Below are positions 1,764-7,067 of a stretch of DNA of 64,000 bases, piece by piece; positions within the stretch are counted from its first letter, which is position 1; every line of letters starts with the position of its first letter. Under the pieces are notes generated by a model, which saw only the letters and a list, made by a program, of their open reading frames with translations, was not told the DNA's origin and searched no databases. Where the stretch lies: positions 1 to 64,000 of the forward strand of contig JAIBBM010000023.1 of NCBI GenBank assembly GCA_019694685.1, read 5' to 3'. Origin of the DNA: Leptospirales bacterium (GTDB lineage Bacteria; Spirochaetota; Leptospiria; Leptospirales; Leptonemataceae). The translations under genes were made by a program, and so were the position numbers.

Positions 1764-4700
1764 ATGAACCCCGACCTGAAGATTCGGTTTCTGCGTGCAA
1801 TGCTCCACGCTCGCATCAGCGATGAGGCAGAGCAGGCGTTGAAGAGAAAAGGCCTGGTTCCTTTTGAGCTATCAAGCGAAGGCCACGAGGCTCTAGCGGC
1901 CATTGCTTTTGCCATGGGACCCGACGACTGGCTTCATCCTCATTATAGGGATCGCGCGATTGTGCTGGCTCGAGGTGTGTCTGATCGCGAGATCTTTCTG
2001 GATTTCTTTTCCAGATCGGGCGCTCCGAGTGCCGGCCGCCAGATGCCTGTGCATTACAATTCTCGCGCTCTTCGCATCGTCACATTGTCCACGCCGGTGG
2101 CGACCAATGCACTGCAGGCTGCTGGCATGGCTCTGTCTCTCAAAGAACGAGGAATACCGGAAGTGGTGATCGCATCCATTGGAGATGCGTCCAGTCGCGA
2201 AGGAGAGTTTTATGAGGCACTCGCCATGGCCGCCGCAGATCAGTTGCCCGTGGTGTTTGTAATCGAAGACAATGGGTATGGTATTTCCACTCCGACAGCC
2301 GGTAGAACTTTCTGGAAAATGAAACATGGAGTCACAGAGAATTCGGATGGATCCTGGTTTCATGGTTGTGCCGTTTTGCGTGTGGATGGACTCGATCCAG
2401 AAGCCGTCTACGAAGCAACGTTAAGCGCCATAGATCAGGCGAGATCCGGGGCCGGTCCTACCATCTTGATTGCGAATGTAGAGAGGCTCAAAAGTCATTC
2501 CAGTTCAGACGATCAGAGAATCTATAGAAGCGCGGATGAACTGGAACATCTCAAGGACCCGGTGAAACTCTACATGCAGCGTTGTCTGGACAGCGGCATT
2601 GTGGACCAGCGTGCGATCGCCGTGATGCGCCAGGAGTTGCATGATCAGGTAAACGAAGCGGCCAGACAGGCGATCGGGGAAGGAGAGCCCGATCCTGGCC
2701 AGGAAATCGATTCTGTATTTGCGCCACTTCCCCTTTCTCTCTGCAATGCTGTAGAAAAGCTCCCGCGCCCTCTTTCCAAAGACGAAGGGGGCAGGACCAT
2801 GGCGCAGTGCATTGAGCTTGTGCTCGAACAGGAGATGAAAGGAAATGATCGCATCTATCTGTATGGTGAAGACATTGAGGACCCAAAGGGAGATGTGTTT
2901 GGAATTACGCGCGGACTTTCCGGAAAATTTCCAGGCCACGTGCGAAATTCTCCTCTCGCGGAAGCGACGATCGTAGGAAGTTCCGTTGGCAGGGCACTCG
3001 CAGGCGACCTTCCTGTGGCCGCCATTCAGTTCATTGACTTTGTCGGGCCTGCGCTCAATCAATTGTTCAACGAAGTCATCACTATTTACTGGAGATCGGC
3101 GGGGCAATGGAATTGTCCGATCTTGATTCTTTCTCCGTACGGGGCGTATGCTCCGGGCATTGGACCATGGCACAGCCAGACAAACGAAGCGCTCTTCGCG
3201 CATATGCCTGGACTTCATGTGGTTATTCCTTCGAGCCCGGCGGATGCGGCCGGTTTGTTGCGATTCTCTCTTCGTTGCCAGCGTCCTGTTCTTTTTCTCT
3301 ATCCTAAGAGGCTCCTTCATACTGCGGAAAACACTGTGGAAATTCCTCCGGAAGATTGCATGGTTCCATTTGGTCGTGCCAGTGTGCTTCGCCGCGGAAA
3401 AGATGTAACACTGGTTACGTGGGGAAACTGCGTTTCTATTTGTCTATCTGCTGCCTCTGTGGCCCATGCGGAAGGAATCGAATGCGAAATCATTGATCTG
3501 CGGACCATCATCCCGTGGGACAGAGACGCGGTTTTGAAAAGCGTTAGAAACACCGGTCGCCTGATCGTTGTGCACGAAGACGCGCGCACGTGTGGTTTTG
3601 GATCTGAGATTGTAGCAGAGGTAGTTGCTGAGTGTTTTGATTCTTTGATCAGCCCACCGACGCGTGTGACCAAGGGAGATGTGCACAATCCATACAACAT
3701 GCGCCTGCAGCTCGCAGCACTTCCATCGGTTGAGCAGACAGCGGCCGCCGTTAGATCTATCTGCCAGTCGCGGAGTGACCGCGCTATTCGAAAAGAGCGG
3801 ATGCCCGAATCTCACGTAACGATGTCTGCCGCAGAAAACGTCGTGAATATCCTGGTTCCGCAGCAATCTCCCACGGACGAAGATGCTCATCTCATCTGCT
3901 TTCGCGTGCAACTGGGAGATGATGTGACGGAAGGCGCTGTGGTTGCGGAAATGGAAGCAAACAAAGGAGCTTTTGAAATCGAATCCACGCACAGTGGGAG
4001 AGTGATTGCACTTCATGGTAGTCCAGGAAGCAGAATGTTGATTGGAGAAAAGCTTCTGACTCTAGAAGTCTCATCACACAATACGAAATCGCAGACGCCG
4101 GGAGCCAGGGGGCGGGAACACCAGGAACATGCGGGCAAGGAACAGGCAGACGGGCCAAACAGTGCCATCGTGAAGTTGTCTCCCGCGCAGATTCGAGTCT
4201 CGCGGATCGCGCGCATGAGCCTGAGAGAGATTCCTCAGTCCTCCGTAGAGTGCGACGCGGACGTGACAAACTTAGTGGGTCATCGCGACAACAGTCTTCG
4301 CACGAGCGAAAGCGGGCAGGAAACGAATCATCCCGGAATCACTCATTCCATCCTCTGGGCCATGGTGCGTGCGATGAAAGAGGAGAGACATCGCTTATTT
4401 AGAGGGAGGCTCAGCGAAGACGAACAATCTGTTCTCATCGGAGAGGGGATTCATGTTGGTTTGGCTGTTCTGGGGCCTGGAGACGATTTGATCGTACCTG
4501 TCATTCGCAACGCACAGAATCTCGATCTCAGTGAGCTCACAGCTTCCGCGCGCGCACTACAGAAAAAAGTCCAGGCAGGGAGCATTGCCGCGTCGGATCT
4601 GGAAGGGGCGACTGTGACTCTCTCTAACATCGGCACAACGGGAGTACTCATAGGCACTCCGTTTGTGATTCCAGGGCAGATGGCGATTCTTGCCGCAGGA

Positions 4701-4838
4701 ACCGTACAGGAGAATTTCTCACATGGGGCAGCCAGGCGATTGATTCGGCTGAGGCTTGCGTTTGATCACAGGCCAATCAACGGATCTCACGCAGCTCTAT
4801 TCTTGCGTTCTATTTGTGATGAACTGGAGAGAATGTAG
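1764..4838 (+). CDS. Single-chain 2-oxoacid dehydrogenase: E1-alpha/E1-beta/lipoyl/E2 fusion
   Basis: This 1024-aa protein joins parts normally made as three polypeptides of a pyruvate or branched-chain 2-oxoacid dehydrogenase complex. Residues 1-340 are E1-alpha, with thiamine-diphosphate motif GDASSREGEFYEAL at 140. From 346 to about 690 is E1-beta (YGEDIEDPKGDVFG). From 695 to 764 is a lipoyl domain, with the lipoyl lysine probably Lys734 in EANKGAFEIES. From about 805 to 1024 is an E2 acyltransferase domain. The E2 active-site motif HxxxDG reads HRPING (His1002, Asn1006), so the Asp is replaced by Asn. No E1/E3-binding domain is evident and no E3 gene is adjacent. The ATG at 1764 is chosen for its GGAGG 7 nt upstream; the frame stays open 39 codons further. 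Substrate unknown. Confidence 0.85.
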   Translation: MNPDLKIRFLRAMLHARISDEAEQALKRKGLVPFELSSEGHEALAAIAFAMGPDDWLHPHYRDRAIVLARGVSDREIFLDFFSRSGAPSAGRQMPVHYNSRALRIVTLSTPVATNALQAAGMALSLKERGIPEVVIASIGDASSREGEFYEALAMAAADQLPVVFVIEDNGYGISTPTAGRTFWKMKHGVTENSDGSWFHGCAVLRVDGLDPEAVYEATLSAIDQARSGAGPTILIANVERLKSHSSSDDQRIYRSADELEHLKDPVKLYMQRCLDSGIVDQRAIAVMRQELHDQVNEAARQAIGEGEPDPGQEIDSVFAPLPLSLCNAVEKLPRPLSKDEGGRTMAQCIELVLEQEMKGNDRIYLYGEDIEDPKGDVFGITRGLSGKFPGHVRNSPLAEATIVGSSVGRALAGDLPVAAIQFIDFVGPALNQLFNEVITIYWRSAGQWNCPILILSPYGAYAPGIGPWHSQTNEALFAHMPGLHVVIPSSPADAAGLLRFSLRCQRPVLFLYPKRLLHTAENTVEIPPEDCMVPFGRASVLRRGKDVTLVTWGNCVSICLSAASVAHAEGIECEIIDLRTIIPWDRDAVLKSVRNTGRLIVVHEDARTCGFGSEIVAEVVAECFDSLISPPTRVTKGDVHNPYNMRLQLAALPSVEQTAAAVRSICQSRSDRAIRKERMPESHVTMSAAENVVNILVPQQSPTDEDAHLICFRVQLGDDVTEGAVVAEMEANKGAFEIESTHSGRVIALHGSPGSRMLIGEKLLTLEVSSHNTKSQTPGARGREHQEHAGKEQADGPNSAIVKLSPAQIRVSRIARMSLREIPQSSVECDADVTNLVGHRDNSLRTSESGQETNHPGITHSILWAMVRAMKEERHRLFRGRLSEDEQSVLIGEGIHVGLAVLGPGDDLIVPVIRNAQNLDLSELTASARALQKKVQAGSIAASDLEGATVTLSNIGTTGVLIGTPFVIPGQMAILAAGTVQENFSHGAARRLIRLRLAFDHRPINGSHAALFLRSICDELERM

Positions 4839-4903: not shown

Positions 4904-5386
4904 TTACATGTTTACAAGTTTGTTCAGTTCTGATTCATACTTTTCTACGAGTCTCTTCCAGTCGTCCTGAAAGGTAGAAGTGAAGCGGCTGAACATATCT
5001 TTGTTGTATGCGCCTGGATAGAATCCTTCCATGATCAAATCGCCTGCTTCGTCGCGATAGAAGCGAGAAGCCATAGCGTCTGAATTGAGTTTGTTGATCA
5101 GAGAGAGCATGCCACGCTCATCTTTCTTACCTTCTGCAGTTGCAATGCGATAGAATGTAACCAGGAACCCATGACCCTTTGCCTGGATGTGCATGTCAGG
5201 CACTGCCTCTTTCGTTTTGCAGGATAGCCTGGGTCCTGATTCTCCAGGTTTGTCTTTGCAGTCATAGCCCAGAAATTCCAGATGAGTCTTGAACTGGCCG
5301 AGGCCATTGTCCGGTTCTTCTGCAGCCAGGTGTTGGGTTAGAATCAAAGAGAAAAGAGAGAGGATCAGGAAAGAACATGATCGCAT
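4904..5386 (-). CDS. Exported protein of unknown function
   Basis: The 160-aa product begins with a clear Sec signal peptide (MRSCSFLILSLFSLILTQHL, then AAEEP) and continues as a soluble domain of about 135 residues rich in charged and aromatic residues. Two cysteines (YDCKDK and LSCKTK) could form a disulphide in the periplasm. I do not recognise the family. The Met at 5386 is preferred because the signal peptide starts there, although the frame is open 15 codons further. It lies 8 nt after a Cys-rich lipoprotein gene on the same strand and probably shares its transcript. Confidence 0.75.
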   Translation of the reverse strand: MRSCSFLILSLFSLILTQHLAAEEPDNGLGQFKTHLEFLGYDCKDKPGESGPRLSCKTKEAVPDMHIQAKGHGFLVTFYRIATAEGKKDERGMLSLINKLNSDAMASRFYRDEAGDLIMEGFYPGAYNKDMFSRFTSTFQDDWKRLVEKYESELNKLVNM

Positions 5387-5394
5387 AACGGGTC

Positions 5395-5634
5395 TCACAG
5401 TGGCGATTTCTCCACGCAGGTTGTTCTGCACTCTTTCTTAATGGAAGTGCAAGCAAGGAATGCATAGACCCCGGTCTGGTCTGCACAGCTAGAGGAACAT
5501 GTGTTTCTTGCGAGTGCCTGCTGGAGGATGACGCATTGTTGGAAGTTATCTTCGCAGTTTCCTACGCACTCAGAATGGGACATGCAACCGGAGACGAGCA
5601 GGAATCCAGCCAGGATCACAATCGCAGATTTCAT
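5395..5634 (-). CDS. Small cysteine-rich lipoprotein
   Basis: This 79-aa protein starts MKSAIVILAGFLLVSGC, a short lipoprotein signal peptide with the lipidated Cys at residue 17. The mature part holds eight more cysteines, six of them in three CxxxC pairs (CVGNC, CSSSC, CRTTC). The regular spacing suggests a helical hairpin held by disulphides. Its ATG overlaps the TGA of mtnB (ATGA), so translation is probably coupled to it. No function is known to me. The start was set by the lipobox and the overlap; a longer in-frame reading would add 27 residues without signal character. Confidence 0.75.
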   Translation of the reverse strand: MKSAIVILAGFLLVSGCMSHSECVGNCEDNFQQCVILQQALARNTCSSSCADQTGVYAFLACTSIKKECRTTCVEKSPL

Positions 5635-6341
5635 CAGACACCCATGGGATGCTGGTCTCGTGTGATGCCGCTTTGACGCATGCGAACCAGGATCTCGCAC
5701 AAATAATCGATGCACTCTGCCTGAGTTTTGGCTTTCACTTCGTCTTTGCCCCAGACATAGATCCCGTGATTTCGCACAGCCACAGCACAGGTCTTTGGAT
5801 ACTTTGCGATTGCTTCTCTCAGAGAATCCGTGAGGTCACATTCCTTTGCAGTGTTGTCTACGACCGGGAGAGTAAATACATCGTGGTAACCGTGACCTTC
5901 CAGGCCTTTGATCATCTCCAGTTCCGTGAACTCGAGAACTGAAATTCGTCCTTCCACTCTTTTTGCATACAGTGTGGACAGCACTACGTTTGGCGAATGC
6001 GAATGAAGCACCGCGCCTGCGTTTCGCATTTCAAAAGCAGAAAGGAATAGAGGCGCGCATTCAGTGAGTTTGAGTTTTTCGTTTTTTGCGTGGCGCGTTA
6101 CATTTCCAGCCAGATCCAGTTCAAAGATATCTTCCGGTTTGATTTTCTCTTTTTCAACGCCACTGGGCGCCATGTAGATTGTATCATTGCGTCGAATGGA
6201 AACCCCACCGCCCGTTCCACTGACCCAGCCAAGAGTGTAAAAATTGCGGCAGATCTCGCAGATCAAATCTCTCGGGGAAGTATCTCTAGTCTGGATGGGG
6301 TTGATTTCGCTGACGCGATCTGTCTGAAATCCAATGGCCAT
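5634..6341 (-). CDS. mtnB: Methylthioribulose-1-phosphate dehydratase
   Basis: MtnB is a zinc-dependent class II aldolase-family enzyme of the methionine salvage pathway. It dehydrates 5-methylthioribulose 1-phosphate in the cytoplasm. The 235-aa sequence shows the family start (RNFYTLGWVSGTGGGVSIRR), the substrate loop MAPSGVEKEKI, the zinc-binding pair GAVLHSHSPNVV and the later zinc His in RNHGIYVWG. Length is normal. The Met at 6341 gives the expected N-terminus, although no strong ribosome-binding site is visible. Other mtn genes are not in the window. It leads a small operon with two exported proteins. A related class II aldolase activity cannot be excluded. Confidence 0.85.
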   Translation of the reverse strand: MAIGFQTDRVSEINPIQTRDTSPRDLICEICRNFYTLGWVSGTGGGVSIRRNDTIYMAPSGVEKEKIKPEDIFELDLAGNVTRHAKNEKLKLTECAPLFLSAFEMRNAGAVLHSHSPNVVLSTLYAKRVEGRISVLEFTELEMIKGLEGHGYHDVFTLPVVDNTAKECDLTDSLREAIAKYPKTCAVAVRNHGIYVWGKDEVKAKTQAECIDYLCEILVRMRQSGITRDQHPMGV

Positions 6342-6440
6342 GGCGACCAGATAAAGGGAAGTGAGGCTGTTCGGCCAGATGAAAAAATCTCCCTGGATCG
6401 ATATTGCGCGAAAACGCAGCGCGCACCCTGATGGCATTCT

Positions 6441-7067
6441 ATGCACAACACGGAAGCAACCGCGCAGGCGTTGAATATTCTTCGGCGCGGTGATCAGTTT
6501 CAATGGAGCGTCATCCCGTTTCTGGCATTTGTATGCTATGTTTATTTCACTGAGATCAAGAATCGAAACTGGGCTTCCGTCTCGGCTGGTCTTGCCCTGT
6601 ACGGAGTGCACTGGTTTTACGAAATCCTAAATGCTCTCATCCAGCATGCAACTGGACATGCTCTCTGGACTGTGCCGACAGGTACTTCGTTTTTGATTTT
6701 CATTGGAGTCGGGATTGAAATCTCTTTGATGTTCGCTGTTTCCGGGATCATCATTTCCAGGCTCCTTCCAGAAAACCCGTCTGAGAAAATAGCCGGCCTT
6801 CCACTCAAATGGTTGCACGTGATTTCTTTTGCCGTACTCTATTCAGTCATTGAAATCTTCCTGGTCAAGGCCACCCCCGTATTTGTCTGGGTGTATGATT
6901 GGTGGGGCGCGATCCCGGTTGGGCTTACTGTATATGTGCCATTTTTTGCAGCGGCAGTATTCGCGTACTACTGGCAGCCCCGCACAAGACTGATCTTCAT
7001 CAGCGCAGTGTGGATTCTGGATTTGTTCCTGGTTCTTGTTTTCGCAGTAGTCCTTCGCTGGATCTAG
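6441..7067 (+). CDS. Polytopic membrane protein of unknown function
   Basis: The 208-aa protein has six or seven hydrophobic segments (for example near residues 22-37, 46-65, 80-107, 124-141, 155-175 and 183-206) separated by short loops. It looks like an integral inner-membrane protein. I recognise no catalytic motif or transporter signature. It is transcribed away from mtnB, with 99 bp between the two starts. It ends 26 bp before the convergent TPR gene. Confidence 0.7.
   Translation: MHNTEATAQALNILRRGDQFQWSVIPFLAFVCYVYFTEIKNRNWASVSAGLALYGVHWFYEILNALIQHATGHALWTVPTGTSFLIFIGVGIEISLMFAVSGIIISRLLPENPSEKIAGLPLKWLHVISFAVLYSVIEIFLVKATPVFVWVYDWWGAIPVGLTVYVPFFAAAVFAYYWQPRTRLIFISAVWILDLFLVLVFAVVLRWI

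Follow-up and report, generated by a model that had tools for sequence, protein, structure and literature searches.

How does a 2-oxo acid dehydrogenase operate when its E1-alpha, E1-beta, lipoyl and E2 domains are all carried by one polypeptide? In the usual view of these complexes, coupling needs giant E2 cores and docking through a subunit-binding domain (PSBD). The question is raised by a gene in a 64,000-nucleotide stretch (the window, meaning the whole stretch analysed) of a 4.3-Mb spirochaete genome, where the following features were located:

1600 to 1629, + strand: terminator-like hairpin with a T-run between flgE and the fusion gene (CCCGC..GCGGG-TTTTTT, read in the sequence)
1753 to 1757, + strand: Shine-Dalgarno GGAGG, 6 nt upstream of the ATG at 1764
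1764 to 4838, + strand: fusion gene E1alpha-E1beta-lipoyl-E2, 1024 aa in one ORF with no stops
1794 to 2696, + strand: E1-alpha domain (PF00676), with the ThDP motif GDA (140-142)...DN (169-170) and loop His245
2796 to 3734, + strand: E1-beta domain (PF02779 + PF02780), with the GEDIEDPKGDVFG motif and active-site His470
3849 to 4061, + strand: lipoyl domain (PF00364), with the predicted lipoyl-lysine Lys734 (3963-3965) in EANKG
4062 to 4166, + strand: low-confidence (disordered) linker, residues 767-801, at the position of the PSBD in canonical E2; none found
4167 to 4829, + strand: E2 acyltransferase domain (PF00198), with Asp1001-His1002 kept (His codon 4767-4769)

A longer ORF starting at 1647 is possible, but lacks the Shine-Dalgarno support of the ATG at 1764. 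The GC content of the gene (53.6%, against 50.5% in the window) gives no sharp signal. Its neighbours are flgE upstream and an unrelated converging gene downstream, and neither pathway genes nor a biosynthetic cluster were seen beside it at the locus.

Pfam matches to the 1024-aa protein, all above curated cut-offs, comprise E1_dh (residues 11-311, E 5.5e-60), Transket_pyr (345-518, E 2e-25), Transketolase_C (537-657, E 4.3e-33), Biotin_lipoyl (696-766, E 6.4e-7) and 2-oxoacid_dh (802-1022, E 8e-40), which bears out the single-chain domain order proposed in the sequence-only reading. In sequence comparison with the PDB, the best match is a Thermus 2-oxo acid dehydrogenase E1-beta, and the C-terminus matches E2. 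The domains, the ThDP Asp and Asn, and the positions of His245 and His470 are those of an alpha2-beta2-type E1, and the position of Lys734 is invariant in the fused family. Across this family the ThDP motif reads GDA instead of GDG (exceptions are L109 with GDG and L126 with GEA); the later Asn is retained, and so is the Asp except in L126, which has Glu. The E1-alpha loop His is present in every aligned fused member and the E1-beta His in all aligned members except L098. In the E2 domain, the Asp of HxxxD is replaced by Asn1006 (codon 4779-4781) in the window protein, and all fused members having the motif carry DHRxxNG rather than DHRxxDG (DHKxxNG in L144). In E. coli E2o, the positions of Asp374 and His375 matter most, and the Asp379Ala variant, altered at the position equivalent to Asn1006, retains 9.5% activity (PMC5986005). 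Both the GDG to GDA and the HxxxD to HxxxN changes are probably tolerated. Since the Asp374/His375 equivalents are kept in the fused family and the Asp379Ala enzyme is still partly active, the fusion protein is likely to be catalytically active.

The fusion is neither a product of chance nor of sequencing error. A single scan of GTDB contigs recovered 394 relatives, and among the best 80 of these, which were analysed, 43 are near-full-length single-ORF E1ab-lipoyl-E2 proteins from Planctomycetota and Verrucomicrobiota; two additional copies (L083 and L127) are interrupted by contig ends. E1_dh, both transketolase domains, the lipoyl domain and 2-oxoacid_dh are matched by 27 of 27 proteins in alignment A2. 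Because the same single-ORF architecture occurs in independent assemblies of both phyla, an assembly error does not account for it, and these many independent copies rule out an erroneous or chance joining of adjacent genes. The window-type fusion was found in 6 of 294 sampled genomes from the Planctomycetota phylum of G393, the verrucomicrobial type in 22 of 289 from the phylum of G395, and the E2 form among 393 spirochaetes in the window genome only. In one Planctomycetota copy (L084:5677-9154), the reading frame changes between E1 and lipoyl-E2, reflecting a frameshift that is either real or from assembly. The recurrence contradicts the earlier suggestion of a possible one-off architecture; of the two grounds on which that suggestion might have fallen, sequencing error does not apply, whereas a common occurrence of the fusion in databases holds in part, though no paper describing it was found. 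Nothing relevant to E1-lipoyl-E2 or E1-lipoyl-KASIII fusions appeared among open-licence PMC papers. The protein thus belongs to a known enzyme class, the 2-oxoacid dehydrogenases, as a variant for which no published description was found, though not a unique one.

The sequence-only reading had also claimed that the protein lacks a subunit-binding domain and that fusion removes the need for one. Pfam E3_binding (PF02817) has no match in the window protein or in 27 of 27 proteins of alignment A2; Pfam alone is misleading here, as this model also misses the divergent PSBD of split E2s. A custom PSBD profile, which detects both canonical and split E2s, yielded no credible match in the lipoyl-E2 linker of 44 of 44 fused proteins, so both searches agree with the first part of the claim. 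When trained without Pirellulaceae, the profile still detects the PSBD-like segment of their E2s (E 3e-8 to 6e-5), whereas a profile built from canonical E2s only did not detect the PSBD of the split relatives, indicating that this segment is divergent. The split relatives (L101, L110, L135, L136, L140, L145, L149 and L155, from Pirellulaceae, Armatimonadota, Hydrogenedentota and others) share the E1ab family of the window protein and the DHRxxNG motif, which all 8 of their E2s carry, but encode lipoyl-E2 as a separate adjacent gene and retain the divergent PSBD. Presence of the domain in split forms and its absence from all fused ones support the second part of the claim, linking fusion to PSBD absence.

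The E1 and E2 trees agree on two main fused clades, one of Planctomycetota with the window copy and one of Verrucomicrobiota, and in both trees the PSBD-bearing split operons fall between them, on the verrucomicrobial side. This placement suggests at least two fusions, each accompanied by PSBD loss, and on the E2 tree the fused label requires 2 changes. One ancient fusion followed by later splits is compatible with parsimony alone, but would require the PSBD to be regained. A Verrucomicrobiales fusion (L109:111-3356) is a domain chimera, with its E1 in the clade of KASIII fusions and its E2 in the verrucomicrobial clade.

These observations lead us to propose, with a probability of roughly 0.7, that the window gene encodes a self-contained E1-lipoyl-E2 enzyme of the 2-oxo acid dehydrogenase type with a PSBD-free mechanism. 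In this mechanism, the E1alpha/E1beta halves of two chains would pair as an ordinary (alpha-beta)2 ThDP enzyme to decarboxylate the 2-oxo acid and acylate the presumed lipoyl group on Lys734 of the same chain. The tethered, trimeric E2 domain would then transfer the acyl group to CoA, and E3 (dihydrolipoyl dehydrogenase), encoded elsewhere in the genome, would reoxidise the lipoyl arm in trans. A PSBD would be unnecessary because E1 is covalently held, and the two-fold contacts of E1 together with the three-fold contacts of E2 could yield a closed oligomer of small size, such as a hexamer like that of actinobacterial OdhA.

The AlphaFold model of the window protein (mean pLDDT 78.3, pTM 0.63) has a low-confidence linker at residues 771-799. 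In Foldseek searches with this model, E1-beta structures matched best, with a Thermus branched-chain enzyme at the top, and the model aligns at modest TM with both OdhA and SucA, across some 770-800 columns. The E2-E1 fusion OdhA is an 800-kDa homohexamer with obligate E1 dimers and E2 trimers, in which the E2 terminal helices control the trimer-trimer contact (PMC10415282). In canonical cubic or dodecahedral E2 cores, trimers contact one another through a hydrophobic anchor at the C-terminus. The window E2 ends 22 residues past the catalytic His, compared with 27-29 residues in 7 of 8 canonical E2s and 24 in L034. This short C-terminus is consistent with the absence of a large core, but the E2 domains of the Planctomycetota relatives, which end 29-33 residues past the His, are not shortened. 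The protein therefore probably forms a small trimer/dimer-based oligomer rather than a cubic core, for which we infer a hexamer by analogy with OdhA; the earlier proposal that its assembly differs from the cubic or icosahedral core is accordingly plausible.

Branched-chain 2-oxo acids are, at about even odds, the substrate. The window genome harbors separate loci for an AceE-type PDH (with E2) and OGDH, which leaves a third 2-oxo acid for the fusion, with a branched-chain one as the best guess. The verrucomicrobial loci L088, L090, L091 and L098 carry genes for an enoyl-CoA hydratase and a carboxyltransferase of the biotin type close to the fusion; L088 and L091 also have an HMG-CoA-lyase-like gene, and L090 has AtuA. 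These genes are named after the best-matching family, with scores under the NCBIfam cut-offs, and the neighbourhood resembles a leucine/isoprenoid-degradation set. The leucine pathway was also sought in the window genome, where only partial matches were found, the best HMG-CoA-lyase match being only 31% identical. The same kind of fused enzyme might instead act on pyruvate or a short-chain 2-oxo acid as a second PDH, which we regard as unlikely but the strongest competitor. PDH-type E1 models give the best NCBIfam scores for the window protein, although none reaches its cut-off, and in the planctomycete G394 the fused E2 is the sole PF00198 match found, so a pyruvate substrate would also fit there. 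However, the AceE-type PDH already present in the window genome, the leucine-degradation-like cluster around the verrucomicrobial copies and the branched-chain E1 as top structural match all speak for the branched-chain substrate.

A sister family places the same E1ab-lipoyl module, about 40% identical to that of the window protein, before a 3-oxoacyl-ACP synthase III (KASIII) domain in place of E2. Of 393 spirochaetes, at least 12 carry it, as do Kiritimatiellota and Planctomycetales, and on the E1 tree it is sister to the clade with the window copy. Examples are L036:8896-12324 and alignment A3 (L063-L074, L122, L132, L138, L147 and L150-L153), in which 19 of 19 proteins match ACP_syn_III and ACP_syn_III_C; the fusions also conserve the KASIII motif regions for Cys, His and Asn. 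All 10 tested KASIII-fusion genomes encode at least one stand-alone KASIII, indicating that the fused domain is additional, and L122 has a gene for lipoate-protein ligase immediately upstream of the fusion. In the spirochaete locus L075:6823-10315 (G209), two ORFs seem to share E1-alpha, and lipoyl-KASIII is encoded by its own gene, which overlaps the E1 ORF by 4 bp; this arrangement represents either a KASIII form in separate genes or the result of frameshifts. The domain content suggests that in KASIII fusions the acyl-lipoyl group may directly prime fatty acid synthesis. More tentatively, E1ab-lipoyl could be a module that supplies acyl-lipoyl groups and on which evolution has swapped the acceptor enzyme at the C-terminus: a CoA acyltransferase in the window family, and in the sister family a KASIII that primes without free acyl-CoA. 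Both forms would then be compact PSBD-free oligomers instead of a classic core.

PDH-like loading enzymes act in some natural-product pathways, and the E2 domain of the window protein might likewise be a biosynthetic loading enzyme that hands its acyl group not to CoA but to a carrier protein or a small molecule, as the KASIII domain of the sister family presumably does. The replacement of E2 by KASIII in the sister family and the HxxxN motif throughout the E2 family would fit such a role. We consider it improbable, since the E2 strongly matches the CoA acyltransferase family, HxxxN is also common to the split, operon-type E2s and no biosynthetic cluster adjoins the window gene.

The window copy itself was probably acquired horizontally from a planctomycete-like donor. 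Its closest relatives are Planctomycetota MAGs with 51-62% identity (among the best 80 of 394 relatives and the G393-phylum sample), and the E1 tree groups it with Planctomycetota (SH-aLRT 99). The window flgE is 91% identical to that of the congener G001, and in both G001 and G002 flgE is directly followed by homologues of window 4904-5431 (- strand) and 5634-6611 (- strand), with no fusion gene between them, so the window copy is an insertion specific to its lineage, at a junction that is otherwise conserved. Nesting with Planctomycetota and insertion between genes adjacent in two congeners make horizontal acquisition the simplest reading, and the synteny rules out a contaminant contig. The gene at 5634-6611 (- strand), kept in the congeners, encodes a homologue of MtnB (methylthioribulose-1-phosphate dehydratase), for which the longest-ORF start seems to lie about 110 residues too far upstream. 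That the whole locus is an artefact or decaying transfer (a joining error, assembly contamination or an inactive enzyme) is very improbable: an estimated MAG contamination of 5.8%, the lack of the gene in both congeners and the two motif substitutions would be in keeping with it, but dozens of independent assemblies carry the same fusion, flgE and the downstream genes are syntenic with G001, both substitutions are conserved family-wide and the equivalent E2o variant keeps some activity. The window fusion is thus real and, judging from its conserved residues, probably functional.

The PDH loci also differ within the genus. The window genome encodes an AceE-type homodimeric PDH (L191, G000:C113) and G001 an alpha/beta-type PDH (L189, G001:C2); a gene of the same family neighbours both, and one PDH type has apparently been replaced by the other. 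The idea that the fusion substitutes for a canonical BCDH of the congener was rejected, as TIGR03182, scoring above its cut-off, identifies the alpha/beta E1 of G001 as a PDH, and its locus has the neighbour that also flanks the AceE-type PDH in the window genome.

An E1-lipoyl-E2 enzyme in one covalent chain, which apparently arose at least twice and on each occasion has no detectable PSBD, makes the usual core-and-docking view testable, and the fused and split relatives offer a natural comparison for testing whether an E2 core and PSBD are needed. The interest extends beyond the single window gene to this pairing of fusion with PSBD loss and to the KASIII sister family, which points to an apparently undescribed start of branched-chain fatty acids from 2-oxo acids.

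Among known systems, canonical BCDH and PDH (such as Thermus 1um9) share the E1-alpha, E1-beta, lipoyl and E2 domains and most catalytic residues with the window protein, but distribute them over separate chains, carry a PSBD on E2 and mostly have an E2 C-terminus about 5-7 residues longer. Actinobacterial OdhA/KGD (E2o-E1o) likewise combines E1 and E2 activities on one chain. However, its E2 precedes a SucA-type homodimeric E1 and it takes lipoyl groups in trans, whereas in the window protein an alpha/beta-type E1 comes first and the lipoyl domain lies on the same chain.
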